64,000 nt of DNA. Origin: Bacteroidota bacterium. Its GTDB lineage: Bacteria > Bacteroidota > Bacteroidia > B-17B0 > Aurantibacillaceae. Made by a program: the position numbers and the translations under genes. Shown one piece after another: positions 35,846 to 59,674 of this stretch. How positions within the stretch are numbered: the stretch's first letter is position 1; every line of letters starts with the position of its first letter. Under the pieces are notes generated by a model, which saw only the letters and a list, made by a program, of their open reading frames with translations, was not told the origin of the DNA and did not search any database. The stretch is from contig JAUXTT010000017.1 in assembly GCA_030684395.1 (NCBI GenBank), positions 186,001-250,000 of the forward strand, written 5' to 3'.

Positions 35846-35875
35846 AAAAAGACCGATGCAATTACATCAGTCTTT
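35846..35875 (-). terminator. minus-strand terminator beside the tRNA-Glu fragment
   Basis: Stem AAAGAC-c-GATG / CATC-a-GTCTTT around CAATTA with one mismatch, followed on the minus strand by a run of T. It directly abuts the tRNA-Glu 3' fragment, which is where a tRNA's own terminator would be expected. It might alternatively serve the LytTR operon to its right. Confidence 0.6.
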
Positions 35876-35888
35876 GTAGCCCGTACGG
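35875..35888. repeat. putative left attachment site (tRNA-Glu 3' fragment)
   Basis: TGTAGCCCGTACGG is identical to the 3' end of the intact tRNA-Glu plus one flanking base (59601-59614). Beyond it only AACCCGTG recurs at a slightly different spacing. A 14-base match in the same orientation on both sides of a gene block is what integration into a tRNA 3' end leaves behind. Confidence 0.5.
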
Positions 35889-36017
35889 AAGTTGATAACC
35901 CGTGGATTATCAGGGGTTATCAAGATTGAATCGCTCGTAAAATCAAGTGTTTCAGGGTGTTTTGCAAATATCCTTTTTTGGTGAAAACCGATGAAAACTG
36001 AGATGAAACGAGAAAAA

Positions 36018-36038
36018 TATCCACCTAATTATCCACCT
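36018..36038. repeat. paired TATCCACCT repeat, left end
   Basis: Two direct copies of TATCCACCT start at 36018 and 36030 (12-nt period). The right end has the same arrangement at 59524 and 59536 in the same orientation. They resemble integrase arm-type sites; TTATCCACC is also one base from a DnaA box. Confidence 0.5.
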
Positions 36039-36117
36039 GTTGTATAAATGGTTCGATTGCAAGTAGTACTACTTGGTTTTATAGGGGGGCACTTTCGTGG
36101 GAATATCCATTCATTAT

Positions 36118-36882
36118 TTACTTAACCTCCCTCAACCTTTCCAACACTTCTGGCTTCTTTCTTCTGGCTACTTCAAAAACTTTATCATTCATCATTTTTA
36201 TAATGAATGGCTCGCCTTTACTATACTCTTTAATGTGAGTGGCATTAATCATAAAGGTTTTGCTGATTCTAATAAAAGTCGATTTAATACCAAAGTAATC
36301 TTCAAAATCTTTTAAGTTTTTAGGTGTAGTAAAAATCTCTCCTGTAATCATTGTTAAGTGACAATACCTTCCATCTCCTTCAATAAAAATAATACCTTGC
36401 TCACTTAGCATTTTTACCTTTTCTCCACTATGTATGGCAAACTTTCTATCTGTAACGTCTGTTTCTAAATTATGCAATAAATTAATAATTTGGGCCTGAT
36501 AATTAGTTTTCTGTCCAATGTTTTTAATGGCTTTACCAACAGCATAATTTAGATCATTAATCTCTACTGGTTTTAATAAATAATCCAATGCATTAAATTT
36601 GATGGCTGTAATAGCGTAATGGTCATAGCTAGTTACAAATATAATTTCAAATGGGACCTCATCAAATTTTTTTAAAAGATTAAAGCCATTTGCTCGCGGC
36701 ATTTGAATATCTAAAAACACTAGTTGCGGTTTTATTTCGACACATAAGCGATAGGCTTCTTCAACATTTGACGCCTCTCCTATTATTTCAATTTCTGTAT
36801 GATTTTTTTTAAGGAGTTTTGTTAAGACCTCTCTACTGTTTTTTTCATCATCAACCAATATTGCTGTAATTTTGTCACACAT
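36118..36882 (-). CDS. LytTR-family response regulator
   Basis: A 254-residue transcription regulator. The receiver domain begins AILVDDEKNSREVLTKLLKK with phosphoacceptor D58 in LVFLDIQMPRANG and conserved lysine in DYLLKPVEINDL. The C-terminal LytTR DNA-binding domain (about residues 150-250) includes EGDGRYCHLTMITGEIFTTP, IRISKTFMINATHI and EVARRKKPEVLERL. It follows its kinase with a 3-bp gap. Its likely operator, ACCGTTTAG, matches the LytTR consensus [TA][AC][CA]GTTN[AG][TG] and occurs in identical 21-bp elements upstream of the protease and adhesin genes. Confidence 0.94.
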   Translation of the reverse strand: MCDKITAILVDDEKNSREVLTKLLKKNHTEIEIIGEASNVEEAYRLCVEIKPQLVFLDIQMPRANGFNLLKKFDEVPFEIIFVTSYDHYAITAIKFNALDYLLKPVEINDLNYAVGKAIKNIGQKTNYQAQIINLLHNLETDVTDRKFAIHSGEKVKMLSEQGIIFIEGDGRYCHLTMITGEIFTTPKNLKDFEDYFGIKSTFIRISKTFMINATHIKEYSKGEPFIIKMMNDKVFEVARRKKPEVLERLREVK

Positions 36883-36885
36883 ATT

Positions 36886-38862
36886 TTAACTTATTAATGG
36901 TAAAAATAATTCGACACGTGTACCTATTGCTTTTTGCTGCGCATCGTATAAGTCTAGTATTGAAATTTTTATATTTTTGGTATTTTCTAATTTATTAATC
37001 ATTTCAATTCTTTCTTCTGTTAATTTCATTGCTAATGGGTCATGAAGTGATTCATTCTTAAATTGATTTGAACGAACCCTTCCAATTCCGTTATCTTCAA
37101 TAGATACTAGTAATAAATTATTTTTATTTTGAATTTTAATTGTCAACTTACCGTTTCGTTCTTCCTCTAAATTCATTAGTCCATGTAAAATCGCATTTTC
37201 AACATAAGGTTGTATTAACATTGCTGGAATTTTAATGTCAAATTCATTCAATTCATCAGAAATGTTTAATTCATAACTAAACTTATTATCAAATCGTAAT
37301 TGTTCCAACTCCACATAAAGAGCGAGGGTTTCTATTTCTATATCTAATGTAATATCATCTTCTCTAGAGTTATTTAATACCATTCTAATGAGTTTACCAA
37401 ATTTTGCCAAATAATTATAGGCAGCATCTTCATGTTTATTAAGTACGTAATTTTGAATACTATTAATAGAGTTAAAAATGAAATGAGGATTCATTTGAGA
37501 TAGCAGCATCTTTTGTCTAAATAAATCAGAATTCTGCAAAGCAATAATTGCTTTTTGTTTTTGAACTTTGTATAGAGAAAAAAGTCCTACAAAAAGAACA
37601 ATAAATAGTGAGGCTAAGATAATCATCATATTGTTCTTTCTGATATTTTCTGTTTCACTATCCTGCTTCATTTTATTAATAAGTTTTTCATTCTCTGTTT
37701 TCAGTAGCAGTTCTTTTTTATCGAACATAAATTTGAGCTCACTTTTTAATATTTTTTCATGAATTTCTTTGTTCAAAAGATCTTCTGAAGTTGCTCTATT
37801 AAGTTCATACATTTCCAAAGCTTTTTTATAGCTTTTTATAGCCTTATAATCGAGATATAAATTTTTACTTATTCTAACAATTTCCACTTTGTCTTTGGAC
37901 TTATTAAGTAAATCTAAAGAATTTTCTCCATATAGTATTGCACTGTCATATTTTTTTAGAACGGCATATGTTTCTGAAATAAGCATATTTGAGGTTGCCA
38001 TTCTTATTGTATCATTTCGGTTTTTAGCAATTTCAAAACTTACTTTAAATTGATTGATTGCTTTTGTGAAGTCTTTTTTAGCTATATAAACATAGGCTAT
38101 ATTATTACTAATATCTATTGCATATTTTTCTTTACGCAGACTATCCAAAACTAAATTACTTTTTTGAAAATAGCTAATAGAGATTTCGAAATTTTTAAGC
38201 GATAAATAGCAGCGAGCTGTTCGAAAAAGGGCTTCATACATGCCGTCAATGTACTCGATTTTCTTTGCATAAATGTATGCTTTATTATACATGTCTATTG
38301 ATTCTCTATACTCATTTTGAGTAAAATAGATTGATCCAAGACTCATATACACTTCATTAACGCCTTCATAGTCATTTGTTTTTTCAAAAAGTAGCAGTCC
38401 TTTATACAAACAATCAATGGCTAAATTCAATTTTCCATTTTCGATGTAAGCCTTTGCAATTCCTAGGTATGACCACGCAGTTTCATTTTGCATATTAATT
38501 TCCGTGTAAATTAGGATGCATTTTTTGAATAGGGGAATCGACAAAGAACTTTTATTGTTATTAACGAAATCGATAGCCTCATTTTGAATTGCAATTGAAT
38601 AATATTTTAATATTACTTGCTTTACTGTTTTATCAGTTAGTGCTTTCTGTAGCATTTTTTCGGACGAGACTTTCATTTCCATATTGTATTTTTCCCATTC
38701 ACCATCAGGTAATTCATTAATCAGTGAATTTAAAGTTTGTAACTTTAAGGTATCGCTGATTTTGAAGGACAATACTTTTTTTAGTGAATCTGTTTTTTTG
38801 TCTTGAGGCAATCCGAGAAAACAACAGAAGCACAACTTTAACAAAAATATTTTTTTTAGCAT
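36886..38862 (-). CDS. TPR-containing LytS-type sensor histidine kinase
   Basis: A 658-residue sensor starting at the ATG at 38862 (MLKKIFLLKLCFCCFLGLPQ, signal peptide); a start 45 bp upstream would disrupt it. Residues about 60-400 are tetratricopeptide repeats (for example NETAWSYLGIAKAYIENGKL, GVNEVYMSLGSIYFTQNEYR), then a transmembrane helix (MMIILASLFIVLFVGLFSLY), then a His_kinase (PF06580) domain with QMNPHFIFNSINSIQNYVL (H460) and a HATPase with NAILHGLMN and DNGIGR. The sensor domain is outside the cytoplasm, so protein-protein contacts may trigger it. It precedes the LytTR regulator. Confidence 0.93.
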   Translation of the reverse strand: MLKKIFLLKLCFCCFLGLPQDKKTDSLKKVLSFKISDTLKLQTLNSLINELPDGEWEKYNMEMKVSSEKMLQKALTDKTVKQVILKYYSIAIQNEAIDFVNNNKSSLSIPLFKKCILIYTEINMQNETAWSYLGIAKAYIENGKLNLAIDCLYKGLLLFEKTNDYEGVNEVYMSLGSIYFTQNEYRESIDMYNKAYIYAKKIEYIDGMYEALFRTARCYLSLKNFEISISYFQKSNLVLDSLRKEKYAIDISNNIAYVYIAKKDFTKAINQFKVSFEIAKNRNDTIRMATSNMLISETYAVLKKYDSAILYGENSLDLLNKSKDKVEIVRISKNLYLDYKAIKSYKKALEMYELNRATSEDLLNKEIHEKILKSELKFMFDKKELLLKTENEKLINKMKQDSETENIRKNNMMIILASLFIVLFVGLFSLYKVQKQKAIIALQNSDLFRQKMLLSQMNPHFIFNSINSIQNYVLNKHEDAAYNYLAKFGKLIRMVLNNSREDDITLDIEIETLALYVELEQLRFDNKFSYELNISDELNEFDIKIPAMLIQPYVENAILHGLMNLEEERNGKLTIKIQNKNNLLLVSIEDNGIGRVRSNQFKNESLHDPLAMKLTEERIEMINKLENTKNIKISILDLYDAQQKAIGTRVELFLPLIS

Positions 38863-38934
38863 AAGCGAGTTCAATATTTTTTTTACGAAAGTAAATATAA
38901 TTTGCATGTTATTTATTTTATGATTGATGTGTGC

Positions 38935-39087: not shown

Positions 39088-40290
39088 ATGTCAAAAACAC
39101 ACACTTCATTTTTAATTGGGGCTTTATTAGTGTTCAATTTCATTAAAGGGCAAGTAGTTGCCACAAATGATACAATTCCTGTAATTGTTCATATTATCAA
39201 TGCCAATGAAACATATGGCACAGGAACAAATCTGGATTCTGTTCAGGTTTATTCTCAGTTCAAGATTTTAAATAATGATTTTAATGGCAATGGACTTAAT
39301 GTTTCAACAGTACCTGCTATTTGGCAATCACTAGTAGCACATACAGGTATTACATTTGTTCCAGCACTATACGACCCTCAAGGTAATCTATTACCTGAAA
39401 AAGGAATTCATAGAGTACCTTATACTTCAATCGATAGTTTGGTGGCTCCAGGCTTAGGATATTCTCAATCAACTATTAATAACGTAATTAAGCCGGCAAC
39501 CATTTGGGATGTTAATTTATATTGTAATATTTGGGTGTTAAAGTTAGCTAATGGCCTTAATGCTTACAGTACTTTCCCTGATAGTACAGGATTCGCGTGG
39601 ATAACAGGCTCAGTTGGTAATGCTTTAAATGATGGGCTCGTTATAAACTATAAAAATTTTGGTGATACGCTTAATGTGATGAATCCCTATAATAAAGGTA
39701 GAACCGCAACTCACGAAATGGGACATTGGTTAGGGTTAATACATATGAATGACTATTGTTCTAATACACCTTATCTAAATGATATTTGGCCAGCAAATTA
39801 TAGCGCTATTAGTTCTATTTTTTCACCACACGTTTATCCAATGCAAGGCACAGAATGTGCCGGCGATACTCACGGTGCCATGTTTATGAATTTCATGTGT
39901 CTCGATTACGATTCAACTCTTGTGATGTTTACGCAAAATCAAGGTGATACGATGCAGTATGCATTACGCAACGCAAAATACAAACACAATTTAAAAAACT
40001 CTTGGGTGCATAAACCGTTTAATGCAACAGGTTTAAAAAACAAAAGCGAACAAAATTTTAGTGTCTACCCAAATCCGTCAAATGGCACTATTCATTTAGG
40101 GAATTTTACTAATGGCAATTCAATCGAAAAAATTGAAATACAAAACATTCAAGGGATAGCTATTTCTTTTGAATGGGATAAAATTAGTCAAGTAATTAAT
40201 TTTAATGATGAAGACGGGATTTATTTTATAAAATTAAATACCAAAAATGGGATTTTTATTAAAAAGCTTTTAATAAACAACACAAAATAA
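39088..40290 (+). CDS. M43-family zinc metalloprotease with T9SS sorting domain
   Basis: A 400-residue secreted protease. A short signal peptide (MSKTHTSFLIGALLVFNFIK) precedes a pro-region and the catalytic domain with HEMGHWLGLIH (HExxHxxGxxH, H209, E210, H213, H219), the zinc signature of cytophagalysin/pappalysin-like M43 proteases; the Met-turn MFMNFMCLDYD is present. The last ~80 residues are a type A T9SS C-terminal domain (FSVYPNPSNGTIHLG, then GIYFIKLNTKNGIFIKKLL), so it is exported through the outer membrane and probably anchored or released. It has a LytTR box upstream and precedes the adhesin gene. Confidence 0.92.
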   Translation: MSKTHTSFLIGALLVFNFIKGQVVATNDTIPVIVHIINANETYGTGTNLDSVQVYSQFKILNNDFNGNGLNVSTVPAIWQSLVAHTGITFVPALYDPQGNLLPEKGIHRVPYTSIDSLVAPGLGYSQSTINNVIKPATIWDVNLYCNIWVLKLANGLNAYSTFPDSTGFAWITGSVGNALNDGLVINYKNFGDTLNVMNPYNKGRTATHEMGHWLGLIHMNDYCSNTPYLNDIWPANYSAISSIFSPHVYPMQGTECAGDTHGAMFMNFMCLDYDSTLVMFTQNQGDTMQYALRNAKYKHNLKNSWVHKPFNATGLKNKSEQNFSVYPNPSNGTIHLGNFTNGNSIEKIEIQNIQGIAISFEWDKISQVINFNDEDGIYFIKLNTKNGIFIKKLLINNTK

Positions 40291-40323
40291 ATTTTAAAAT
40301 TGATTTATTCGTTTTTACTGTTT

Positions 40324-40469: not shown

Positions 40470-43400
40470 ATGCTACAAAAAATTACAATTTCAATCTTAC
40501 TACTTTTAACTTCAATTATTACAAATGCCCAAACGCAGTTTTGGAGTGACACCTTTGAAGATGCTGGTGCACCAAGTTCTGGAACAAGAACTCCTTCAAC
40601 AACGTTTTATGCTTCTAACGAACGCTATTTTAATAGAGTAACAACTGCACAGGTTAATACAACACTTGCTTATACTTCATTCGAAGGAAGCAAGTTTTTT
40701 GGAGGTGCAGATATTGATAACCTAACTGGGCAAAATACCCAGTCTTCTCATCAAAATGTTACATGGTCATCCATTAACATTTCCGGAAAAACTGGGCTTT
40801 CGTTTAAGGGTTTATTTGCTATTGGCAACTCAGCTAATTTTGACCATTTTCCAGGCTCATCCCCTATTGATTATATGTTAGTTGAGTATAGAATTGATGG
40901 TGGAGCTTGGACTAATGCTATACGCTTTTTTCCAAATATTGCAAATAGTGGCGCAGGTGCACTTGCACTTGAAACAACTGGGGATTCACTTGCTGCTGGT
41001 GAGGGCGCAGCTCTTAACGGCACCTTTACGGAATTTACTTACAATATATCAGGTACAGGAACGCTCCTTGATTTAAGGTTAAAATGTGGAGCTAATGGAA
41101 CATCATTTGAAGAAGTTGCAGCAGATAATTTTCGTTTATTTGAAACTCCTGCTTGTTCAAACCCAGTTATAGGACCCCCTCCGACAAATGCTTCAGTTTG
41201 CTCTTCAGGAAACACTGCATTTACAATCGCATCAACAGGAGCAACATCATGGCAATGGCAACTAAATACAGGATCAGGTTTTAACAATATTGCCAATGGT
41301 GCACCCTACTCTGGTGTTACAACACAAACATTAACCATAACAGGGGCAACAACAGGCATGAGCGGTTACTTATACCGTTGTATTGCAACAAGTGGCGCTT
41401 GTAATACTACTTCCTCTCAAGCAACTTTAACAGTTTCAAATCCTTCCTTAACCCTTTTATCCCAAACAAATATTTCTTGTAATGGAGGCTCAAACGGTGC
41501 GGCTTCAGTTAATGCAGCAAGCGGTGGTATCCCATCTTACACATACAATTGGACACCTGGAAATCCAATCGGCGACGGAACAGTTTCAGTTACTGGTTTA
41601 ACAACAGGTACTTGGACATGCACAGTTACTGATAACATAGGCTGTACTGCAACCGCAACAGTTAATATTACACAACCAACCGCCCTTTCACTTACATCAA
41701 ATACACAAACAAACGTTTCTTGCTTTGGTGGATCAAATGGTACAGCAAGTGTAAATGCTGCTACAGGTGGTGCTGGTGGATATACATACAACTGGACCCC
41801 GGGCAACCCAACAGGTGATGGAACAGTTTCTGTAACTGGATTAACTGCCGGAACCTGGACATGTACTGTTACAGATGCAAACTCTTGTACAACAACTCAA
41901 ACATTTAATATTACTGCGCCTACAGCATTAGTAGCATCTGCTTTATCGCAAACAAATGTTTCTTGTTTCGGTGGAAGTAATGGAGCTGCATCAGTTTCTG
42001 TTAGTGGTGGTACAACTGCTTATTCTTATAACTGGACACCGGGCAATCCAACTGGCGACGGAACAATTTCTGTTACTGGCTTAACTGTCGGTACTTGGAC
42101 ATGTACAGTTACAGATGCAAACGCCTGTACAACTACTCAAATAGTTTCTATTACACAACCAACTGCAATAACTGCATCAATTTCTTCAACTACAACTTCT
42201 TGCGTTGGTAATACTGGTACTGCTACTATAAGCGCAGTTGTTGGTGGAACAGGTGCTTACACATATTCTTGGGCTCCTTCGGGTGGAACCACGGCTTCAG
42301 CTACTGCTCTAGGTGCAGGATCATATACTTGTACTATTACAGATGCAAATTCTTGTTCAATTACCAAAACAACAAACGTGACAACTGCAAGTGGCCCTGC
42401 TTTAACTTCTGCTTCTCAAACAAACATTTCTTGTTTTGGTGGTAGTAATGGATCTGCTAGTGTAAATACAGCAACAGGTGGAACTAGTCCATACACATAT
42501 AACTGGACTCCTGGTAATCCAACTGGCGACGGAACAATTTCTGTCACTGGCTTAACTGCTGGCACTTGGACTTGTACTGTTACAGATGCTAACGCATGCA
42601 CAACAACTCAAACATTTAATATTACACAACCAACTGCACTTGTTGCTTCAGCTGCTTCACAAACAAATATTTTTTGTTTCGGTGGATCTAACGGAGCTGC
42701 ATCTGTTTCAGTTAGTGGTGGTACAACTGCATATTCATACAACTGGACACCAGGCAATCCAACTGGCGATGGAACTGCATCTGTTACTGGCTTAACTGCT
42801 GGTACTTGGACTTGTACGGTTACTGATGCAAATTCTTGTACTGCAACTCAAACATTTAACGTTACACAACCAACTGCACTTGTTGCTTCGGCTTCTTCGC
42901 AAACAAACATTTCTTGTTTTGGAGGATCTAACGGAGCTGCATCTGTTTCTGTTAGCGGTGGTACAACTGCTTATTCTTATAACTGGACTCCAGGTAATCC
43001 AACAGGCGATGGAACTGCATCAGTTACTGGTTTAACTGCTGGTACTTGGACTTGTACTGTTACCGATGTAAACTCATGTACAACAACTCAAACTTTTACA
43101 ATTACTGCGCCTACTGCATTAGTAGCGGCTGCTGCTTCACAAACTAATATTTCTTGTTTTTTAGGGCCAAACGGAGCTGCATCAGTTTCTGTTTCAGGAG
43201 GCACAACAGCATACTCTTATAACTGGACTCCAGGAAATCCAACAGGCGACGGAACTGCATCAGTTACTGGTTTAACTGCTGGTACTTGGACTTGTACTGT
43301 TACAGATGCAAATTCTTGTACTACAACTCAAACTTTCACAATTACACAACCAAGTGCTTTAGTTGCTACAACTGCATCACAAACTAATATCTCTTGTAAT

Positions 43401-45266
43401 GCAGGAAGTAATGGCACTGCAAGCGTAAACACAGCAACAGGTGGAACTGGCCCATACACATATAACTGGACTCCTGGTAATCCAACAGGAGACGGTACAA
43501 TCTCTGTAACAGGATTAACAGCTGGCACTTGGACTTGTACAGTTACTGATGTAAACTCTTGTACTGCAGCACAAACATTTGCAATTACTCAACCCACAGC
43601 TATAGTAGCATTTAATTTATCGCAAACAAATATATCTTGTAATAGCGGAAGCAATGGTGCAGTATCAGTTTCAGTTAGTGGTGGTACAACTGCTTATTCA
43701 TATAACTGGACACCTGGCAACCCAACAGGCGATGGAACTGCTAGTATTACTGGTGTAACTGCCGGCACTTGGATTTGCAATGTGACGGATGCAAACGGAT
43801 GTACAACAACAACAAGTGCAACAGTTACTGAGCCAGCTCTTTTATCTGCTAGTTCAGTATCAACCGCAATTCTTTGTAATGGAGGAGCATCAATTATAAC
43901 AGTAAGCTCAACAGGCGGTAGTCCTTCTTATAGCGGAATTGGAACGTTTACTGTAACAGCAGGCATGTATTCTTATACGGTAACAGATGCAAATGGATGT
44001 ACTGCAACAACAAACATAACAGTTGTAGAACCAACAGCAATCACAAATTCGCAAACATTAAATTTATGTGCTGGACAATCAGTTACTGTTGGTTCAGCCA
44101 TTTATACCACAACAGGTATTTATACAGATGTGTTAACAGCAATTAATGGATGCGATTCATCAGTTACAACTAATTTAACTGTTAATCCCGCAATTGTAAG
44201 TTCACAAACACAAACACTTTGTTCGGGACAATCCGTTACAGTTGGTTCTAATACTTACACAACTAGCGGAACCTTCACTGATGTTTTAACCGCAACTAAT
44301 GGTTGCGATAGCACTGTAACAACAAATCTTACGGTTAATGCTGCTATTGTAAACACTCAAAATATTACATTGTGTGCTGGACAATCCTTAACAGTAGGAT
44401 TAAATACTTATGCTACAACAGGAAATTATACTGATGTTTTAACCGCAGCTAATGGATGCGATAGCACTGTAACAACAAATCTCATAGTTAATGCTGCTAT
44501 TGTAAACACTCAATCCGTATTACTTTGTTCTGGTCAATCAATTGTAGTTGGATCAAATACTTATTCCTCTTCAGGCGTTTACACCGATGTATTGACTGCA
44601 GCTAATGGTTGCGATAGCACTGTAACAACAAATCTTACTGTTAACGCACAGATATTGTTTACACAAAACGTTGCTGTGTGTTTTGGAGGAAGTATTACTG
44701 TAGGCACAAATACTTATTCAGTTACAGGAACATATACTGACAACCTTACAGCCGCTGCTGGCTGCGACAGTATTGTAACAACTAACTTAACAGTAAATAA
44801 TATAATTGATGTTACAACTACATTAAATGACTTAATAATAACAGCAAATGAATCTGCCGCAACATATCAGTGGATTAATTGCGATAATAGCAACGCTATA
44901 ATTCCTGGCGAAACAAGCCAAAACTTTACTGCAACTTCAAATGGTAATTATGCAGTTATAGTTAGTCAAAATGCTTGTTCGGATACAAGCGCCTGTGTAA
45001 ACATTTCTAATGTTGGAATTAAAGAGGTTAATAGTTTAACAGGAATTAAATTATACCCTAATCCTACTAATAGTTCATTTACAATTTCAGGAGTTGAATT
45101 AAAAACAACGATCAGTATTTATAATATAATTGGTGAATTAATTAAATCGACTCAAACAGAAAAAAACAATACAATAATTGATTTAACTGATTATTCAACT
45201 GGAATTTATTTCATCAAAATAAAAAACAATGACGGAGAAGCAATTAAAAAATTAATTAAGGAATAA
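40470..45266 (+). CDS. giant SprB-repeat cell-surface adhesin with T9SS sorting domain
   Basis: A 1598-residue secreted protein. Signal peptide MLQKITISILLLLTSIITNA. Residues ~22-228 form a jelly-roll-like N-terminal domain; 229-325 look Ig-like (WQWQLNTGSGFNN, CIATSGACNTT). Residues 327-~1190 hold eleven SprB-type repeats of about 78 residues, each with QTN-I/V-SC, YNWTPGNPTGDG and TGLTAGTWTCTVTDANSC. Five repeats of about 50 residues follow, with CxGQS-x-T-VG and TDVLTAxNGCDSTVTTNLTV. The C-terminus is a type A T9SS domain (LYPNPTNSSFTISGVE, YSTGIYFIKIKN). SprB-type proteins serve gliding or adhesion. A LytTR box lies upstream. Confidence 0.93.
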   Translation: MLQKITISILLLLTSIITNAQTQFWSDTFEDAGAPSSGTRTPSTTFYASNERYFNRVTTAQVNTTLAYTSFEGSKFFGGADIDNLTGQNTQSSHQNVTWSSINISGKTGLSFKGLFAIGNSANFDHFPGSSPIDYMLVEYRIDGGAWTNAIRFFPNIANSGAGALALETTGDSLAAGEGAALNGTFTEFTYNISGTGTLLDLRLKCGANGTSFEEVAADNFRLFETPACSNPVIGPPPTNASVCSSGNTAFTIASTGATSWQWQLNTGSGFNNIANGAPYSGVTTQTLTITGATTGMSGYLYRCIATSGACNTTSSQATLTVSNPSLTLLSQTNISCNGGSNGAASVNAASGGIPSYTYNWTPGNPIGDGTVSVTGLTTGTWTCTVTDNIGCTATATVNITQPTALSLTSNTQTNVSCFGGSNGTASVNAATGGAGGYTYNWTPGNPTGDGTVSVTGLTAGTWTCTVTDANSCTTTQTFNITAPTALVASALSQTNVSCFGGSNGAASVSVSGGTTAYSYNWTPGNPTGDGTISVTGLTVGTWTCTVTDANACTTTQIVSITQPTAITASISSTTTSCVGNTGTATISAVVGGTGAYTYSWAPSGGTTASATALGAGSYTCTITDANSCSITKTTNVTTASGPALTSASQTNISCFGGSNGSASVNTATGGTSPYTYNWTPGNPTGDGTISVTGLTAGTWTCTVTDANACTTTQTFNITQPTALVASAASQTNIFCFGGSNGAASVSVSGGTTAYSYNWTPGNPTGDGTASVTGLTAGTWTCTVTDANSCTATQTFNVTQPTALVASASSQTNISCFGGSNGAASVSVSGGTTAYSYNWTPGNPTGDGTASVTGLTAGTWTCTVTDVNSCTTTQTFTITAPTALVAAAASQTNISCFLGPNGAASVSVSGGTTAYSYNWTPGNPTGDGTASVTGLTAGTWTCTVTDANSCTTTQTFTITQPSALVATTASQTNISCNAGSNGTASVNTATGGTGPYTYNWTPGNPTGDGTISVTGLTAGTWTCTVTDVNSCTAAQTFAITQPTAIVAFNLSQTNISCNSGSNGAVSVSVSGGTTAYSYNWTPGNPTGDGTASITGVTAGTWICNVTDANGCTTTTSATVTEPALLSASSVSTAILCNGGASIITVSSTGGSPSYSGIGTFTVTAGMYSYTVTDANGCTATTNITVVEPTAITNSQTLNLCAGQSVTVGSAIYTTTGIYTDVLTAINGCDSSVTTNLTVNPAIVSSQTQTLCSGQSVTVGSNTYTTSGTFTDVLTATNGCDSTVTTNLTVNAAIVNTQNITLCAGQSLTVGLNTYATTGNYTDVLTAANGCDSTVTTNLIVNAAIVNTQSVLLCSGQSIVVGSNTYSSSGVYTDVLTAANGCDSTVTTNLTVNAQILFTQNVAVCFGGSITVGTNTYSVTGTYTDNLTAAAGCDSIVTTNLTVNNIIDVTTTLNDLIITANESAATYQWINCDNSNAIIPGETSQNFTATSNGNYAVIVSQNACSDTSACVNISNVGIKEVNSLTGIKLYPNPTNSSFTISGVELKTTISIYNIIGELIKSTQTEKNNTIIDLTDYSTGIYFIKIKNNDGEAIKKLIKE
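41448..44038 (+). repeat. array of eleven SprB-type repeat units
   Basis: About 234-bp coding units in tandem inside the adhesin. Units 2, 3 and 5-10 are very similar at the DNA level, with stretches such as GGTACTTGGACTTGTACTGT repeated; units 6-8 are the closest, unit 4 and unit 11 the most diverged. This suggests recent homogenisation by recombination within the central array. Confidence 0.85.
44039..44800 (+). repeat. array of five CxGQS repeats
   Basis: Five units of about 150 bp, each coding roughly 50 residues ending in NGCDSTVTTNLTVN. They follow the SprB array directly, and DNA of the middle three units is nearly identical over GATAGCACTGTAACAACAAA. Confidence 0.8.
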
Positions 45267-46398: not shown

Positions 46399-46432
46399 CA
46401 AACATTATTAGCACTTAACCTATAAAACAATT

Positions 46433-47010: not shown

Positions 47011-47113
47011 GATATCTTAAAAAAGATAATAGAATGAATTATTTGGAAAAAGTCGGTTCATTTTAAATAACCTTTTTAAATAAGCGAAAGATATAACCTA
47101 TTAGTAGAAAACA

Positions 47114-51400: not shown

Positions 51401-51446
51401 GACTCTTAAAAAACAAACTGAATATTTTGCATTAAAAACTGTAAAG

Positions 51447-52040
51447 ATGAAAAAAGGGGCACACATATTTCTTATTATATTATCGATCAGTACATTTTTG
51501 TTTTCCTGTACTAATGCAGAGGAAGTAGAAGTCACTAAAAATGAAAAAATGGAAAATTTGGGTTTCGAAGACATGCCAAATTCAGAAACCAAAAGTATAA
51601 CCATTGAAACTAAAAACACAGCAGATCAACTTGAATTAATCACAAAATTGCGGGCAAAATTAGAAGAGGATGATTTTGATTTTGAACAACAAGAAGTCAC
51701 AAGATTCCCCGGCTTCAGCAATTGCGAAGAAAATACTACAATTTCAATCACAGGAAATGGATTGCGTCAATATTTTGCAAGAAGCAGAAAACCAGAAAAA
51801 AACACCACTGACTTTTACCCTGATTTTATAATACAAGTTTTCGAATTTCAAAATGAACAAATCGCGCAGGAAAAATTTGAAATCATGCACAAAGCCATGC
51901 ATTCTAAAGGCAGATTTTGTAATGGTAAGGCCCCAATGGTTTTAGTGATCAATAATAACGAAGTGTTTTATTTCTTTACAAGAGCAGAAATGTTTCGTGG
52001 CTACATCAATGAATATAGCGAATTCGTAGAAATGCTATGA
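51447..52040 (+). CDS. lipoprotein of unknown function
   Basis: A 197-residue protein with a lipobox FLFSCTN after a hydrophobic stretch (MKKGAHIFLIILSISTFLFS). The mature part starts with an acidic linker and contains two long helical segments (LELITKLRAKLEEDDFDFEQ, QIAQEKFEIMHKAMHSKGRF). No family recognised. It follows the membrane protein by 46 bp. Confidence 0.72.
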   Translation: MKKGAHIFLIILSISTFLFSCTNAEEVEVTKNEKMENLGFEDMPNSETKSITIETKNTADQLELITKLRAKLEEDDFDFEQQEVTRFPGFSNCEENTTISITGNGLRQYFARSRKPEKNTTDFYPDFIIQVFEFQNEQIAQEKFEIMHKAMHSKGRFCNGKAPMVLVINNNEVFYFFTRAEMFRGYINEYSEFVEML

Positions 52041-52238
52041 ATAGATTTAATGCAAATTGGTAAATGGAATGCTTGAAAGCTGAGAACGACAAAAATAGTT
52101 TTGGATTAGACCCATTTAAACTAATGGTGTCTGCCAAGTTTGGCATGATAACATTCATCGTGTAGAGATGGTATAAATAAGTTAGCAGTAATTGAACCAG
52201 AATTAATCAAGGGTGTACAACAATAGTAAATCAACAAC

Positions 52239-53258
52239 ATGAAAAAAAATTTAGCTACACTCATATTTCTGCTTAGTTTCACATTAGTTGATACTTTGGC
52301 CCAACCGGGAGATGATGACCATAAAATCCGATTGAAATATTTCCATGCAATTCAAGACTCCATTCAAAAGTATCCAGACAATCTTTTCTATAAATGGGTA
52401 CGTTTGGATTTGCTTTTCAATCCCCTCTTTGAAATTCAAACAAAACCAACTAAAAAAATAGAGAATTTTCTAAGTAAATCAGCCCATTTTAGTCTATACA
52501 TTCAAGATTCAATTGTACATTCAAGCAGGCCACATTATATGTCTTCTGCGCTTATTATTACTAAAACTTATAATCCAGCAAAGACTTTAGGTGATTTCTT
52601 ATTAAAGAATCAAGATGTGCTCATTGCAGATTTGACCAAATTAATTGAGAATAATTTGAAATTTGAGAATAGATTTATGAACTCCATAGGTCAATATAAT
52701 CCAACAGCAAATAAATCTAACTTTCTGTACAAACGAGGACAGTTCTACTACTTAACAGGTGAAACTGAAAAAGGACTTACTGACTTTACATCTGCATTAA
52801 ATTTTTTTCCTAAAGATGATTTGACAAAAAGAATTTACACTTCATTAGCAGCGTATTATTATAATATTGAAAAGCCAGTGCAAAAAGAAAACTACGAGTT
52901 GGCATTAAAATTCATTAGCCTTGTTGAACCTGCCATAGAAGATAATTCATATAACAAAGGTGCAGAACCGCAGTTATATCGCTACGAAAGAGAGAAGTTG
53001 GAACTTATGAAAAGATACAATGATTCTACTTCATATGTAAGTTATCTTCAAAATAGATCGGTAGGATTTTTGAATTATTACTATTCACTTATGGAAATAG
53101 TAAATGGTGAAGACAGACAAGACTTTGCAATGGACGAAGCATTTGCAAGAAGTAGAGAATATGAATTAATGATTTATGACTATTTGATTGAATTGAATCC
53201 AAGTACTGGCGCAGAAGAATTCAAAAAGCACAAGAAATTGATAATTGAAAAAATATAA
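52239..53258 (+). CDS. exported TPR-like protein
   Basis: A 339-residue protein with a signal peptide (MKKNLATLIFLLSFTLVDTL). Several helical pairs resemble tetratricopeptides (FLYKRGQFYYLTGETEKGLT, TSLAAYYYNIEKPVQKENYE). The 198-bp space upstream shows no other gene. Function unknown; the TPR character is an impression from residue pattern rather than a certain match. Confidence 0.65.
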   Translation: MKKNLATLIFLLSFTLVDTLAQPGDDDHKIRLKYFHAIQDSIQKYPDNLFYKWVRLDLLFNPLFEIQTKPTKKIENFLSKSAHFSLYIQDSIVHSSRPHYMSSALIITKTYNPAKTLGDFLLKNQDVLIADLTKLIENNLKFENRFMNSIGQYNPTANKSNFLYKRGQFYYLTGETEKGLTDFTSALNFFPKDDLTKRIYTSLAAYYYNIEKPVQKENYELALKFISLVEPAIEDNSYNKGAEPQLYRYEREKLELMKRYNDSTSYVSYLQNRSVGFLNYYYSLMEIVNGEDRQDFAMDEAFARSREYELMIYDYLIELNPSTGAEEFKKHKKLIIEKI

Positions 53259-53261
53259 CTA

Positions 53262-53414
53262 ATGCTAACACAACCTTTGATAAATGTAGTGCAGAACGAA
53301 AATAAAAGTTTGCTTGTTAGGAATTATGAATTGCTATCAGAAGTACAATCCGTAAATGAAAACAAGTACTTTTTTATAAATATGCTCACTTGGACAAAAA
53401 TAATTTCTGAATAA
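53262..53414 (+). pseudogene. duplicated 3' gene fragment
   Basis: This 50-codon frame (MLTQPLINVVQNENKSLLVR onwards to NMLTWTKIISE) matches the last 50 codons of the gene at 55094 (PVINAVHDENKSLIVRNYEF through DMLTWTKIIFN) at both protein and DNA level, including the following linker and ATGAAAAAACTA. It is a truncated copy lacking signal peptide and N-terminus. Confidence 0.75.
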
Positions 53415-53420
53415 ATTAAA

Positions 53421-54413
53421 ATGAAAAAACTACTTGCTATATCACTTCTTTTATTTTCATTAAATGGAGCTTGTCAATCGTTCCAAAAAACGTTCATCCG
53501 AGAATTTGTTCCAAATTCTAATGCTAAAATTAGCTGTAAATATGAGTTTAGCTTAGATAGTACTTTTTTATATGAGCAAAAAAATAGTTCATTAGTAAAT
53601 GGGGTAAGTCAGCAAACGATAATAAATTCATATACAGGCACCTATAAAACTTATGGTGATACTATAAAATTATTAAGTCTCAATGGTGAAATTTTAGAAC
53701 CCTCTGAAGAGCATTGCTTAATAATAGATTCCATTTTAAACGGAGTAATGGCTTTAAGTAATACGCATAAACTAACAGACTATTTTTACGATGAAAGTTT
53801 GTGGATTATTAAAGGTAAGTGGGGAGAATATAATATGATCTGGGGATATTATACCGAACAAATTGATTGTAGTAAAAAGGACTCAAGTTACGATTATAAA
53901 CGAATAGCCTTGGTTGATTTAAAATACGCTGATACAACTTATTATTGTATCCCAGCGAGTAATGATAAATTAAAATTTAATTTGAGTTTCTATGCTAAAT
54001 ACTTTTCTGTGCTCAATTATTTAATACTTATTCCTTTTTCTGAGAAAGGCGTTTCACAACGACCTTGCAGATGTTATGACAATGACATGTACATAACCCA
54101 TTGTCTTCATGGTTGGTCTGAGAGGATGTCTACATCACCTATTTTAGGTTCTCAATATGATGACAATGGCAGGTTGATACAGTATTGTCTTTATGGTGGG
54201 TTTGAGATGAGCTCTATCCCAACTGTTTTAGGTTTTGAATATTATGATAATACTGATTTAATAAAATCTTCGGCTGTATCTGGCCCAATTGAAATTGATA
54301 AAAAAGAGTATAAAACATTTAAGTATGATAATGAAGGAAGGCTTATTGAATTTAATATTCATTATTATGAAAAGGGAGAATTGACGCATAGTTATAAAAT
54401 AATTTATTTGTAA
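53421..54413 (+). CDS. exported protein of unknown function
   Basis: A 330-residue protein with a signal peptide (MKKLLAISLLLFSLNGACQS). Repetitive tyrosine/asparagine-rich segments near the end (QYDDNGRLIQYCLYGGFEMS, YDNEGRLIEFNIHYYEKGEL) resemble short YD/RHS-like or lipid-barrier strands (YDNEGRL). It starts 6 bp after the duplicated fragment, and its first codons are the same MKK(L) as in that family, so the fragment may have donated its 5' end. The stop is followed by 1 bp before the next ATG. Confidence 0.7.
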   Translation: MKKLLAISLLLFSLNGACQSFQKTFIREFVPNSNAKISCKYEFSLDSTFLYEQKNSSLVNGVSQQTIINSYTGTYKTYGDTIKLLSLNGEILEPSEEHCLIIDSILNGVMALSNTHKLTDYFYDESLWIIKGKWGEYNMIWGYYTEQIDCSKKDSSYDYKRIALVDLKYADTTYYCIPASNDKLKFNLSFYAKYFSVLNYLILIPFSEKGVSQRPCRCYDNDMYITHCLHGWSERMSTSPILGSQYDDNGRLIQYCLYGGFEMSSIPTVLGFEYYDNTDLIKSSAVSGPIEIDKKEYKTFKYDNEGRLIEFNIHYYEKGELTHSYKIIYL

Positions 54414-54414
54414 A

Positions 54415-55050
54415 ATGAAAAAACTAATAATCTTACTTTTATTCATTGCCACAACTCCAATTTTTGGGCAAAGCGATAGTCTAAATCAAGCCAAAATTGA
54501 TAGCTTGTGTAATGTTTTGCCTCTAAATTTATCATCAACTGAAGTTATTCGTTATGGATTAACCTACGATACTTGGGTAAGCAATGACGATTTTGGCATT
54601 AGTATCGCAAATGGCTGGAGACGCGACACTTTGAATGGCGATAAAGGAGTGCATAGAAATCCATTCACTTCTTCCGACAATGACAGATATGAAAAAAACC
54701 AATTTAAAGATTCTAACACCGATTGTCGATATTATAGATATAAAAAAGGGAGAAAATATACTGGAAAAGTATCAGATACTCTTTTTTCAATATACCAAGG
54801 GGAAATTATTTTCAATACAAATTGCATTAATGGAATGATACAAGGCAAAGGAACTTTAATATTACTCAGCACCAAGCAAATAATAGCAAGCTGTAGTTTT
54901 GAAGATGGAGAACTAATTGGCGAGTGTATTTCCGTGAATCGAAAAACAATGGGTGAATATCGATTCACTTATGTAAAAGGTAATTTTCAGTGGACAAAAA
55001 TGATTGAATTGGATAAAGATGGAAAAGTCATATTAGTTGGAGAGCAATAA
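54415..55050 (+). CDS. exported protein with MORN-like segment
   Basis: A 211-residue protein with a signal peptide (MKKLIILLLFIATTPIFGQS). The middle carries GISIANGWRRDTLNGDKGVH and YKKGRKYTGKVSDTLFSIYQ; the end has GKGTLILLSTKQIIASCSFE and DGELIGECISVNRKTMGEYR, a variant MORN-type repeat (G-x-G-x-L). A paralogue with the same architecture is at 55643. It begins 1 bp after the previous stop, so translation is coupled. Function unknown. Confidence 0.72.
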   Translation: MKKLIILLLFIATTPIFGQSDSLNQAKIDSLCNVLPLNLSSTEVIRYGLTYDTWVSNDDFGISIANGWRRDTLNGDKGVHRNPFTSSDNDRYEKNQFKDSNTDCRYYRYKKGRKYTGKVSDTLFSIYQGEIIFNTNCINGMIQGKGTLILLSTKQIIASCSFEDGELIGECISVNRKTMGEYRFTYVKGNFQWTKMIELDKDGKVILVGEQ

Positions 55051-55093
55051 GATTGAGAATGTTCCCAATTTTAATCCTTAAAAAATGAACAAA

Positions 55094-55636
55094 ATGAAAA
55101 AACTAATAATCTTACTTTTACTTATTGCCACAGCTCCAATTTTTGGGCAATCATCTAGTTCTGCAGAATTTGAAATAAATCTGATTGTCAACAAAAACAG
55201 AAAAGATTTTGAAAACATGCAGATGTATTACATTTCAGGAACTGGAATTACAAACTGCCAACTTCAAATAGATTCCACCGAAAATAGTAATTACTGTAGT
55301 GTTAAACTTTACGGAAGCTATGTTTATTTTGGTGGTGGAAATGCTATATTTCCAACCTTTATCATTTCAGAAACGAAGAACAATGTCATTCAAAATTATC
55401 TGATTAAGGTTGATTTTAGCGCTGGACCCGTTTCAAACATTAAAACTTCCGAACCCAAAATTAATCAAATAGCAATTTCACTATATCCATCACAACCTGT
55501 GATAAATGCTGTGCATGACGAAAATAAAAGTTTGATTGTTAGGAATTATGAATTTCTTTCGGAAGTACAATCCATAAAGGAAAATAAGTACTTTTTTATA
55601 GATATGCTCACTTGGACAAAAATAATTTTTAATTAA
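55094..55636 (+). CDS. exported protein of unknown function
   Basis: A 180-residue protein starting at the ATG at 55094 (MKKLIILLLLIATAPIFGQS), three codons downstream of an alternative ATG. The mature part (INLIVNKNRKDFENMQMYYI) is beta-rich and unrelated to its neighbours, although the signal-peptide DNA is almost identical to that of the genes at 54415 and 55643. The last 50 codons recur as a fragment at 53262. No family recognised. Confidence 0.7.
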   Translation: MKKLIILLLLIATAPIFGQSSSSAEFEINLIVNKNRKDFENMQMYYISGTGITNCQLQIDSTENSNYCSVKLYGSYVYFGGGNAIFPTFIISETKNNVIQNYLIKVDFSAGPVSNIKTSEPKINQIAISLYPSQPVINAVHDENKSLIVRNYEFLSEVQSIKENKYFFIDMLTWTKIIFN

Positions 55637-55642
55637 ATTGAA

Positions 55643-56167
55643 ATGAAAAAACTAATCATCTTCATGTTCCTGATTGCCACAACTCCAAGTTTCGCGCAAA
55701 ATGATAGTGCCAGGATGTATAAAGGCAATGTGAATCATATAATTGTTTTAAACCCCAATGGTGAATCCTTAATAAAATTCCCTAAGAAAAAAAGAACCTA
55801 TAACGAATTTGTTGGAAATTATGCAATTGAATACGGCTTTAAGCTAGCAGAAGGATGGAGAAGAGACTCTTGTAATGGTGGATATGGAAAAGAGATGGGT
55901 GATAATCCGTATATAGATTTTATTAAATGTCAATTTATAAAGACAGATTACGGAAGCAATTTTGTTTATTTTTATTATAAAAGAGGTAAAAGATATTCTG
56001 GAAAAATTAAAGAAAAATTTAACTTGCTAGGTGGTTCTCGACAGGAAATAACTTTTCGTGCAAGATGTCGGAATGGAAAACTTCAAGGAAAAGGGACGCT
56101 CACAATATCTGAAACGAAAGAAATTGTTGCAGAATGTTTTTTTGAAAATGGAGAATTAGTTGGTTAA
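55643..56167 (+). CDS. truncated paralogue of the MORN-like protein
   Basis: A 174-residue frame with signal peptide MKKLIIFMFLIATTPSFAQN. GFKLAEGWRRDSCNGGYGKE and YYKRGKRYSGKIKEKFNLLG match the equivalents at 54415; CRNGKLQGKGTLTISETKEI and AECFFENGELVG end at a TAA where the paralogue continues with ECISVNRKTMGEYR. The reading frame beyond the stop is still similar for another 42 codons (next entry). Probably no longer complete. Seven bases separate it from the preceding gene. Confidence 0.65.
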   Translation: MKKLIIFMFLIATTPSFAQNDSARMYKGNVNHIIVLNPNGESLIKFPKKKRTYNEFVGNYAIEYGFKLAEGWRRDSCNGGYGKEMGDNPYIDFIKCQFIKTDYGSNFVYFYYKRGKRYSGKIKEKFNLLGGSRQEITFRARCRNGKLQGKGTLTISETKEIVAECFFENGELVG

Positions 56168-56293
56168 TGTGTTTTCGTGAATCGAAAAACAATGGGAGAA
56201 TATTGATTCACCTACGCAAAAGGAAATAGTCAGTGGACAAAAATGATTGAGTTAGATAAAGAGGGAAAAGTTATTTTAGTTCGAGAGCAATGA
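56168..56293 (+). pseudogene. remnant C-terminus of the truncated paralogue
   Basis: In the frame of the preceding gene, 42 codons after the stop read CVFVNRKTMGEY, a second stop (TGA in place of CGA at 56207) and then FTYAKGNSQWTKMIELDKEG to VILVREQ and TGA at 56291. The gene at 54415 reads CISVNRKTMGEYRFTYVKGN here. So a GAG-to-TAA and a CGA-to-TGA change cut an otherwise preserved tail. Confidence 0.75.
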
Positions 56294-56326
56294 AATAATA
56301 GGGAATTAATCCACAAAATTAACATT

Positions 56327-57055
56327 ATGAAAAAACTAGTATCCATTATTATAAGTTTCACTTTAGCATTAAATTCATTTGGTCAAGAACCTGCTGAACA
56401 AATAAGGTTAATCATAATAGATTCTTTAGGGAAGTTAATTACTCCCGATATTTGGATTAAAAGTAAACACATCAATATGAATGATGTGAAAGTAATTGAA
56501 TCTAAAGAAGAACATTTAATAATCGACTCAATTCCTAAATTTCAATTTGGCTCCATCGTTTTTAACGGAAGTTCTTATACCATTTTTCCAATAATTGGTG
56601 GTCATTGGCTAGACAATGAATATAATATCAAATTCTCTTTTGAAAATAAAGTCATGAATATCAATCTAATTACCAACGGTAGTTCTTTTAGTGACACCAT
56701 TACATTTAGAAAAGGGAATTTTGTTTACCTGCATCACAGTCTTAATTACAGTAATTCGCATTCGTTAATAGCAGCATGGCCTAAAGATTGTGATTTTATA
56801 AAACATACAAAAGAAAAAATCATTCAATTAAATTCCAATAGTGAAAGTGATTTTTGTTCTTTGAATTGTGAGGGAACAATAAAAGAATTAGATTCTAAGT
56901 TGACAACAATTCTATTAAAGAACATTAAATATTTTCCTGAATTTTTAATAATTAACAATTTACCTTTGGGGGTTCTTATTTGGAATAAGGAACGCCTTCA
57001 AGTCTGTTACTTTTCAGATAATTTTATTGAAATATTAAGAAAGAATTACTACTAA
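56327..57055 (+). CDS. exported protein of unknown function
   Basis: A 242-residue protein with a signal peptide (MKKLVSIIISFTLALNSFGQ). Mixed beta-strand character with VNLITNGSSFSDTITFRKGN-like segments and three cysteines in the second half (SDFCSLNCEGTIKE). No family recognised. It lies 33 bp after the remnant, on the same strand as the whole cluster, which probably forms one transcript. Confidence 0.7.
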   Translation: MKKLVSIIISFTLALNSFGQEPAEQIRLIIIDSLGKLITPDIWIKSKHINMNDVKVIESKEEHLIIDSIPKFQFGSIVFNGSSYTIFPIIGGHWLDNEYNIKFSFENKVMNINLITNGSSFSDTITFRKGNFVYLHHSLNYSNSHSLIAAWPKDCDFIKHTKEKIIQLNSNSESDFCSLNCEGTIKELDSKLTTILLKNIKYFPEFLIINNLPLGVLIWNKERLQVCYFSDNFIEILRKNYY

Positions 57056-57065
57056 AAGCAGAGTG

Positions 57066-57089
57066 ATTGAATATTATAATTTATAGAAT
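57066..57089 (+). repeat. 24-bp leader repeat, copy 1
   Basis: ATTGAATATTATAATTTATAGAAT just before the ATG at 57088 recurs with one mismatch at 57878-57901, in the 5' space of the next gene. It may mark a duplication of the 5' end of the gene at 57088; copy 2 is followed by a ten-codon frame beginning MKNRTYF. Confidence 0.6.
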
Positions 57090-57882
57090 GAGAAAAATGA
57101 AAAAATATAGTTTAATAATCTTACTCACTTGTGTTTTGATGAAATCGCATGCACAATATCCTTCTGAGATTTCATTCGAAATAAACCAACAAAAATTTCT
57201 GGTAAAAGTAAATTATACAACTAATTTTAAAACAGTTGTTGCTTTTTTTAGAGATTCAGTTCTGATTAAAAGCGACACATTATTGCATAACGAATTTACA
57301 AAATTATACTTTCGAGGATTTAATAAAGACACATTGGTAAATATAAGATTGATTGGATTTAAAAACGGATACAAAAATGCTGAATATGTATATGCAAGTA
57401 AATATATCGAAATTGAGAAAACACTTAGTCTCGACTTAGATCCTTCATATTATGATAAATATTGTAAATTGTATGAGTATAACAAAAAACTAAATAATTT
57501 TAATTCGGTTAATGGATTTGACTGGATACGTAATCCTGAATTTCTTAAAAGTAATCCTCATTACTTTACAAGTACCCAAAGGTTTGATTGTGAACAGTTG
57601 TCATACATCACAACACTATTCCTTATAAGTAATCTTAAAATTTACCCAAAAGCACAAATGAATCAAATGTCTGCAAACGATTCTTTTGGAACAATGGTAG
57701 TTGAACTATACGAAATTGATAAGAAAAACGAAAATAAAAAAACAATGATAGATAGGCAGGTGAAATGCACTATGCAACCTGTTTGTTATGGACCTTCGCA
57801 TGTTTCCCACTTTAATGATGGGTTATATTGGGAAAAGCATTGTGTAGATTTTAAAGCATATAGGCTACTTGGGAGTAATTGA
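57088..57882 (+). CDS. exported protein of unknown function
   Basis: A 264-residue protein if started at 57088 (MRKMKKYSLIILLTCVLMKS); an ATG at 57097 (MKKYSLI) is equally plausible and an upstream TTG is rejected. After the signal peptide the chain is acidic-basic mixed with ISFEINQQKFLVKVNYTTNF and a distal HFNDGLYWEKHCVDFKAYRL, with no recognised family. It shares a 24-bp leader with the space after it. Confidence 0.68.
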   Translation: MRKMKKYSLIILLTCVLMKSHAQYPSEISFEINQQKFLVKVNYTTNFKTVVAFFRDSVLIKSDTLLHNEFTKLYFRGFNKDTLVNIRLIGFKNGYKNAEYVYASKYIEIEKTLSLDLDPSYYDKYCKLYEYNKKLNNFNSVNGFDWIRNPEFLKSNPHYFTSTQRFDCEQLSYITTLFLISNLKIYPKAQMNQMSANDSFGTMVVELYEIDKKNENKKTMIDRQVKCTMQPVCYGPSHVSHFNDGLYWEKHCVDFKAYRLLGSN

Positions 57883-57901: not shown

Positions 57902-57967
57902 TTATAAAATGAAAAATAGAACCTATTTTATACATCTTTAAAATAATTAATACAGAAAAATAATTCT

Positions 57968-59407
57968 ATGAAAATTTTTATCTTCATTCTTGCTTGCCTT
58001 TTAATCTTTGTTAATAACTATGCCCAACCAGGTTATCCGCCAGATAAATATGTGAACTTAGATGATATACCAGATTCTGCCGAAATTGTATATACGAGCT
58101 TTGTACACCCTTCGAATATTTATGGCGGCTATCAGATTTACTATTTTATTGATTCGAGTACAACAAAGTTCAAAAATCTATCTCTTTTAAAAGAAATCAC
58201 ATTAGACTTGAACTTTATCCCGCAAGAAATGATTGATTTCGGACAGAATATCGAAATTTTGAAAATGAGGAGTAATCACTATAAAATGTCGAATAACATC
58301 GAAAATGCGCAGCTTCATGATACTATCAAAAATTTACTTTTGCTGAATAAACTTCCAAATCTAACAACTGTTTATATCAGTGGGTTTTACATTGATGAAG
58401 AAAATCAACTAGTTAATAATGAATTACGTATAGCACAAAGCAATAATCAGAGTCGATTTTTTTCTTTTGTAGATGTAGAAATTTTAAACATTAGCGAACA
58501 CGTACTTTGCACGAAGTTATACTTGCACACAACGAAAATCAGCAATATTAAGGGTCTTGTTCAAAATACTTTTATAAAGGAAATGTATTTATCTAAACTC
58601 AACTTTATTAAATTGCCTGAAAATTTACCTCCTTCACTTGAAAAGCTCGAAGTAAGTAATTGTGATTCATTGACCGATATTTCAAATTTATCAGAATATC
58701 CAAAATTATCATCTTTCATTATTCATACAGGCTCAAAAATAAAACAGTTCCCTAAAAAACTTCAATCTGAGATTTTTTCAACGATTGAAATCGATTATAT
58801 TAGACCAGAACGTGTTGTTGAATTTATGGAGTTTATCAGCAATGCAAAAACAATTGAATGGCTTAAAATTGGAACATGCCGAGGGGAAGGAATCGGTAAA
58901 ATTGATGTTGATTTCCGAAACAATAAGGTTACAATTGGAACACTAGATATTAATGGAAATTGCTTTGATTCAAGAGCCCCAATTCAACTAAACGGAATAG
59001 ATAGCCTTTCGGTAACAAATTTATATTTGAATGGAGTTTTTGATGAAATTCCTGCCTTTTCAAAAATAAAAGACCTGCGTAAATTGTATTTTGGTTCATG
59101 TTATCCTATGAATAAAGAAACTATGGAAGAACTATTTAAATTAAAAAATCTCTCAGAATTCAGAATTAGCAATATTAAAGTTAATGTAATACCAGAGCGT
59201 TTTTTTAAAAATAACACAAGTCTAGTGAGTTTATCAATTGTAGGGTCTGAGATCAAAAACTTATCCTTTCATAATTGCATTTTGATCAATTTAAGACACT
59301 TTCATATAGCTGGGAATATGAATCTGGAAAAAATTCCAAAGAAAATGTATTATCCCAATGCTTATTTAAATTTGTACGGGAATAAAAAAGAAAAGTACAC
59401 GAATTGA
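57968..59407 (+). CDS. exported leucine-rich-repeat-like protein
   Basis: A 479-residue protein with a signal peptide (MKIFIFILACLLIFVNNYAQ). Residues about 60-470 show an irregular L-x-x-L-x-x-L pattern (EMYLSKLNFIKLPENLPPSL, NLSEFRISNIKVNVIPERFF, TSLVSLSIVGSEIKNLSFHN), as in leucine-rich repeats of the diverged, BspA-like kind. It would form a solenoid for protein binding on the cell surface or in the periplasm. No T9SS sorting domain is visible. It is the last gene before the right end of the putative island. Confidence 0.75.
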   Translation: MKIFIFILACLLIFVNNYAQPGYPPDKYVNLDDIPDSAEIVYTSFVHPSNIYGGYQIYYFIDSSTTKFKNLSLLKEITLDLNFIPQEMIDFGQNIEILKMRSNHYKMSNNIENAQLHDTIKNLLLLNKLPNLTTVYISGFYIDEENQLVNNELRIAQSNNQSRFFSFVDVEILNISEHVLCTKLYLHTTKISNIKGLVQNTFIKEMYLSKLNFIKLPENLPPSLEKLEVSNCDSLTDISNLSEYPKLSSFIIHTGSKIKQFPKKLQSEIFSTIEIDYIRPERVVEFMEFISNAKTIEWLKIGTCRGEGIGKIDVDFRNNKVTIGTLDINGNCFDSRAPIQLNGIDSLSVTNLYLNGVFDEIPAFSKIKDLRKLYFGSCYPMNKETMEELFKLKNLSEFRISNIKVNVIPERFFKNNTSLVSLSIVGSEIKNLSFHNCILINLRHFHIAGNMNLEKIPKKMYYPNAYLNLYGNKKEKYTN

Positions 59408-59523
59408 TACACCAACATTACGCATTAAAAAAAATTGAGTTCGATAGCAGAAATAGTATTAAAACACAAACAAAATGAAAACTACACTAATTTTAAGAAG
59501 ATAATTTAATCTAAGTTAAAAAT

Positions 59524-59544
59524 TATCCACCTATATATCCACCC
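59524..59544. repeat. paired TATCCACC repeat, right end
   Basis: TATCCACCT at 59524 and TATCCACCC at 59536, the same 12-nt period and orientation as the left-end pair at 36018 and 36030. Confidence 0.5.
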
Positions 59545-59552
59545 GATAAACT

Positions 59553-59591
59553 AAAAAACTCCTGTAAATACTTGATTTACAGGAGTTTTTT
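59553..59591 (-). terminator. terminator of tRNA-Glu
   Basis: A 17-bp stem AAAAAACTCCTGTAAAT/ATTTACAGGAGTTTTTT with a 5-nt loop. It lies 11 bp downstream of the tRNA 3' end on the minus strand and works in both directions. Confidence 0.85.
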
Positions 59592-59602
59592 AGTTTTAAC
59601 TG

Positions 59603-59674
59603 TAGCCCGTACGGGAATCGAACCCGTGTTTCGTCCGTGAAAGGGACGCGTCCTAACCCCTAGACGAACGGGCC
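59603..59674 (-). tRNA. tRNA-Glu (TTC)
   Basis: Minus-strand cloverleaf beginning GGCCCGTTCGTCTAGGGGTT, anticodon stem CGTCC/GGACG with loop CTTTCAC (anticodon TTC), T-arm ACGGGTTCGATTCCCGT and acceptor ending ACGGGCT with discriminator A; CCA is not encoded. The first acceptor pair is a G-U wobble in this alignment. Its 3' end is duplicated at 35875-35888. Confidence 0.94.

Follow-up and report, generated by a model that had tools for sequence, protein, structure and literature searches.

A 23.7-kb island at tRNA-Glu in a Bacteroidota genome, very probably an integrated element that lost its integrase

The DNA stretch analysed here (64,000 nucleotides, hereafter the window) contains the 14-bp sequence TGTAGCCCGTACGG in two exact copies on the plus strand, at 35875-35888 and 59601-59614. 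With up to two mismatches allowed, these were the only two sites in the window, against 0.07 expected. The 12-mer TAGCCCGTACGG, which is part of the repeat, occurs only twice in the whole 4.87-Mb genome, answering the concern that the sequence might be common elsewhere. The right copy lies within the 3′ end of an intact tRNA-Glu (TTC) gene, identified by ARAGORN on the minus strand at 59602-59674. Folding revealed strong terminator-like hairpins on the minus strand at both ends. The left one, at about 35848-35875, is followed by a T run and folds with -14.9 kcal/mol (z -7.5); the right one, at 59548-59596, has a 22-bp perfect stem, folds with -27.3 kcal/mol (z -10.7) and is homologous to the right ends found in the family genomes G069, G076, G058, G011 and G067. 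The original prediction of a tRNA-Glu island thus had the repeat and its coordinates exactly right, and the intact tRNA gene and the separate terminators were confirmed as well. Its description of the 204-aa left neighbour as "UDG-like" was not borne out, as a Pfam search with this protein gave no match at E 0.01. In our interpretation, the left copy would be the attachment core, duplicating the tRNA-Glu 3′ end, and the tRNA gene would be the restored target. The left hairpin would then be the native tRNA-Glu terminator, displaced to the far end of the island, and the right hairpin its element-borne replacement.

The cargo begins with two minus-strand genes, encoding a LytTR response regulator (36118-36882; PF00072, PF04397) and a TPR sensor histidine kinase (36886-38907; PF06580, TPR). 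The plus-strand genes that follow encode an M43-type metalloprotease (39088-40290; PF05572) and a 1598-aa SprB-repeat surface protein (40470-45266; ten stretches of PF13573), both with a type IX secretion tail (PF18962). Next come three ORFs with no informative family match (45292-47524), a ketopantoate reductase-like gene (47506-48469), a serine beta-lactamase-fold protein (PF00144) with DUF4440 (49450-50937) and eight ORFs (50996-57882) that matched no Pfam family, several of which have secretion-type N-termini. The last gene, where relatives carry an integrase, encodes a leucine-rich-repeat-like secreted protein (57968-59407) with weak LRR matches and no homologue at E 1e-20 in the 86 other family genomes. 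The content had been described as partly decayed. The ketopantoate reductase-like gene agrees with this, being split into two ORFs in different frames (PF02558 at 47506-47925, PF08546 at 48020-48469) and likely frameshifted; no other decay was visible in the cargo. Three adjacent ORFs at 54415-56167 start with a near-identical signal-peptide-like stretch (MKKLII...ATTPIFGQ) and are possible tandem paralogues. Among the Pfam-scanned cargo ORFs, none matched a relaxase, a coupling protein or a type IV secretion gene. A PADLOC search for defence content gave weak partial matches only, which we rejected as domain cross-hits.

The base composition changes at the predicted boundaries. Median ORF GC is 0.32 in the interval versus 0.37 outside, and GC3 is 0.24 versus 0.34 (p 2e-9), with a range of 0.18-0.30 for cargo ORFs and 0.27-0.41 for the flanks. 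Across the left boundary GC3 drops from 0.35 (35171-35785) to 0.26 (36118-36882), and across the right boundary it rises from 0.27 (57968-59407) to 0.35 (59771-60466). The interval had been called AT-rich, and this holds apart from the total GC of the SprB-repeat gene, which is high (0.39) although no ORF has a lower GC3 (0.18).

A second feature shared by both ends had been overlooked. It is a pair of 8-bp direct repeats in the same orientation, TATCCACC-N4-TATCCACC, found genome-wide only at 36018-36037 (spacer TAAT) and 59524-59543 (spacer TATA), both on the plus strand; by our own arithmetic from base composition, about 0.001 exact twin repeats would be expected in the genome by chance. 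The left twin repeat recurs in loci L059-L061, and the right one is identical in G069. The distance from core to twin repeat is 131 bp on the left and 59 bp on the right. The left spacer (35889-36017, plus strand) begins with AAGTTGATAAC, common to other left ends in the form nnGTTnAnAACnC. Directly after the left core, at 35892-35923, there is also a 13-nt inverted repeat, TTGATAACCCGTG / CAGGGGTTATCAA, which is partly conserved among other left ends and is perhaps a further protein site. Sites of lambda-type tyrosine recombinases lie next to the integrase gene and have a core with short repeated arm sites on its two sides, unequally distant from it. The sites described here resemble them in their core, their unequal putative arm sites and the integrase gene found nearby in relatives, whereas the putative arm sequence TCCACC and its 12-bp pitch are their own. 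From the position and conservation of the twin repeats, we infer that they are arm-type sites bound by the integrase.

The same ends were found in family relatives. Counting the window's own genome, 5 of 87 family genomes contain the exact twin repeat. In G002, G098 and G102 it belongs to left ends in which a hairpin is followed by the core, nnGTTnATAAC, about 131 bp and then the twin repeat. A search with this left-end pattern revealed a second copy in G002 and further ones in G011, G058 and G069. A match in G014 was discarded, there being no twin repeat behind it. Besides the window's own left end, there are thus seven other cases in six genomes. All eight directly follow a minus-strand hairpin and have the identical core, after which they diverge from the tRNA; the core-to-twin-repeat distance is 131-132 bp in seven of them and 141 bp in G011. 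The shortness of the repeat, previously considered a weakness, is therefore no objection, since exactly the same core in eight left ends makes it normal for this element group. At six tRNA-Glu right ends the corresponding distance is 59-61 bp, adjoining the element-borne terminator. In G069 both ends lie on one contig, about 105.7 kb apart, and at the right end the integrase start is followed by the twin repeat, the terminator and tRNA-Glu. A left-end scan of about 85,000 species returned six stretches, which match the family genomes already found, and the element group has been found only in this one Bacteroidota family.

Other loci vary around this layout. Inside one genus, g2, tRNA-Glu has very different trailers and neighbours (L144-L173, 3′ side), as expected of an integration hotspot. 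In G011, a 4.7-kb remnant (L084, contig C86, 4236-8989) has its two ends, together with tRNA-Glu and a pseudogene of the integrase; the hairpin that precedes the left end is almost the same as that at the right end, which suggests a tandem insertion or a captured terminator. In G018 (L091, contig C78), a right end with the core TAGCCCGTACGGG has no tRNA beyond it and an integrase split over two frames, and is perhaps a secondary site. In G008 (L036, contig C211), a different tandem repeat, TTCGAGTGTATT twice at about 13790-13870, lies beside tRNA-Glu and perhaps represents the arm sites of another integrase; the same stretch contains a homologue of the M43 protease.

The relatives identify the enzyme that is missing from the window. 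In G069, the protein adjoining tRNA-Glu is a tyrosine integrase with domains PF00589 and PF13102. Its relatives in G076, G067, G058 and G065, with 62-91% identity, adjoin the same kind of right end, located at tRNA-Glu in the first three and at tRNA-Gln in G065. At the G065 locus (L089, contig C64) the integrase is 62% identical and a similar twin repeat is present, but the tRNA is tRNA-Gln (TTG), i.e., the target has changed. The integrase begins about 50 bp inside the right twin repeat in G069, G076, G067 and G058, and it is present in all tRNA-Glu relatives with intact elements wherever the right end was read; in G011 it is a pseudogene with about ten stops. The absence of a recombinase in the island had been noted before, and we indeed found no recombinase or transposase, serine recombinases included, among the Pfam-scanned window ORFs, and no PF00589 match anywhere on the window's contig. 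A relaxed tblastn search detected no integrase remnant in the window. However, the window's arms, terminator and tRNA align with the relatives' right ends, with only the integrase start and gene missing. The scar at 59408-59523 retains AATTTAATCTAA, common to the window and G069, so that part of the integrase upstream region is still recognisable. What had seemed a weakness of the case is thus resolved by the relatives with the same right end. Because no remnant is left in the window, it is from the shared right end that we infer that the island once carried this integrase.

We further compared occupied and empty sites. The comparison was made on relatives' left ends of the same kind, as a search for an empty site with the window's own left flank or from its species found none. 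The left end on contig C2 of G002 (occupied) and the intact tRNA-Glu locus of G097, which has no twin repeat, align over 1,521 bp with 98.3% identity, up to exactly the last base of TAGCCCGTACGG, where the alignment stops. G097 represents another genus of the same family, and contig C2 (L076) comes from a bin with 66% completeness and is possibly misbinned, which would not affect the sequence comparison. The trailer CTACTTTCG adjoins intact tRNA-Glu in G043, G096, G097 and G099, and left ends in G002, G098 and G102. This shows directly how a left end of this kind comes about, namely through insertion at the core, and identifies the preceding hairpin as the native tRNA trailer. The empty-site check suggested by the original prediction therefore succeeded in relatives, with the break exactly at the core. 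In G001, of the same genus as the window, tRNA-Glu precedes the same downstream genes, yet neither a left end nor a twin repeat is present. The left-side gene order is not comparable with G001, because a response regulator further left and tRNA-Glu are on separate contigs there. The 204-aa left neighbour, tried as a synteny anchor, had no homologue in 40 relatives, and a search for an empty site for G069 via its right neighbour left the left flank unmatched at the tRNA-Glu loci recovered.

Taken together, the conserved ends, their fixed spacing, the relatives' integrase, the occupied/empty pair and the GC3 switch support the predicted tRNA-Glu island. We conclude that 35875-59614 is very probably an integrated 23.7-kb element that has its attachment sites as ends and has lost its integrase by deletion, similar to a CIME. 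In the proposed mechanism, a tyrosine integrase of the G069/G076/G067/G058 clade would bind the core and the twin TCCACC arm sites, 131 bp away on one side and 59 bp on the other, and join the circular element to the tRNA-Glu 3′ end at a 12-14-bp core. The element would supply a core copy and its own terminator, so that the tRNA stays functional, and the native terminator would be displaced by 23.7 kb. A later deletion would have removed the integrase gene, while the two attachment sites stayed behind with the arms and the cargo. A related integrase acting in trans, or accretion, might in principle mobilise the stranded island, which we presume could still move. It may also be composite, because many diverse elements may use this tRNA.

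The cargo ORFs are mostly open and both attachment sites appear complete, their core and arms being exact, as they would in an active or trans-mobilised minimal element that consists of attachment sites only, never had its own integrase and depends on a helper. This explanation is unlikely, as the window's own genome contains no close homologue that could serve as helper (the best match to the G069 integrase is a partial protein with 32% identity), the intact tRNA-Glu relatives all carry the integrase where the right end was read, and the recognisable upstream region points to an integrase once in place. A decayed prophage at tRNA-Glu is less likely still. Although the attachment sites are built similarly to those of phages, and distant relatives of the integrase occur in phages (about 21-28% identity), the cargo consists of secreted and signalling proteins, and no phage structural or replication gene is among its Pfam matches. 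A viral collection search found neither the right end nor the integrase, and IMG/VR contigs gave no confirmed integrase relative. Taken alone, a 14-bp repeat is short enough to be a chance or gene-conversion copy, the AT-rich block then being ordinary variable chromosome. We give this reading almost no credence: the core and the twin repeats at both ends are unique, seven more left ends have the same layout and the empty site stops at the core, so that the recurring ends and the occupied/empty pair already refute it.

The preferred reading, an integrated element that lost its integrase, has a close parallel in CIMEs, cis-mobilizable elements that have lost their integration and transfer genes and kept attL and attR (PMC5704250). 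The window likewise keeps attL and attR in a tRNA 3′ end, with no integration or conjugation genes found; it differs in that its mobility is putative, a conjugative parent is only a possibility and its host belongs to the Bacteroidota, with relatives known as uncultured MAGs. In the 105.7-kb element of G069, ten proteins were scanned, with no conjugation gene among those ten. In Chryseobacterium and Elizabethkingia, ICECspPOL2 and ICEEaIII insert into the tRNA-Glu-TTC 3′ end, which makes this a demonstrated ICE site in Bacteroidota (PMC8694125). The 18-bp direct repeat of ICECspPOL2, ATTCCCCTACGGGCTACT (PMC8694125), spans the same tRNA part as the window core, a likeness in insertion site; its 116-kb size and its type IV secretion and resistance genes (PMC8694125) are its own.

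The kind of element is thus already known, and its attachment system appears to be undescribed. A broader proposal, towards which we lean less than away from it, is that these loci may define an undescribed Bacteroidota element group. Its putative twin TCCACC arms would lie at fixed, unequal distances and its main target would be tRNA-Glu; it would bring a portable replacement terminator for the tRNA and include persistent cargo derivatives with attachment sites only that relatives could re-mobilise. The loci represent decay stages at one tRNA, from a large element with integrase (105.7 kb) through one that lost it (23.7 kb) to a remnant (4.7 kb). Integrase-less islands become diagnosable by arm-site pairs and fixed spacing, without needing the integrase, and the element group gains a searchable end signature in a host family known here mainly from metagenome assemblies.
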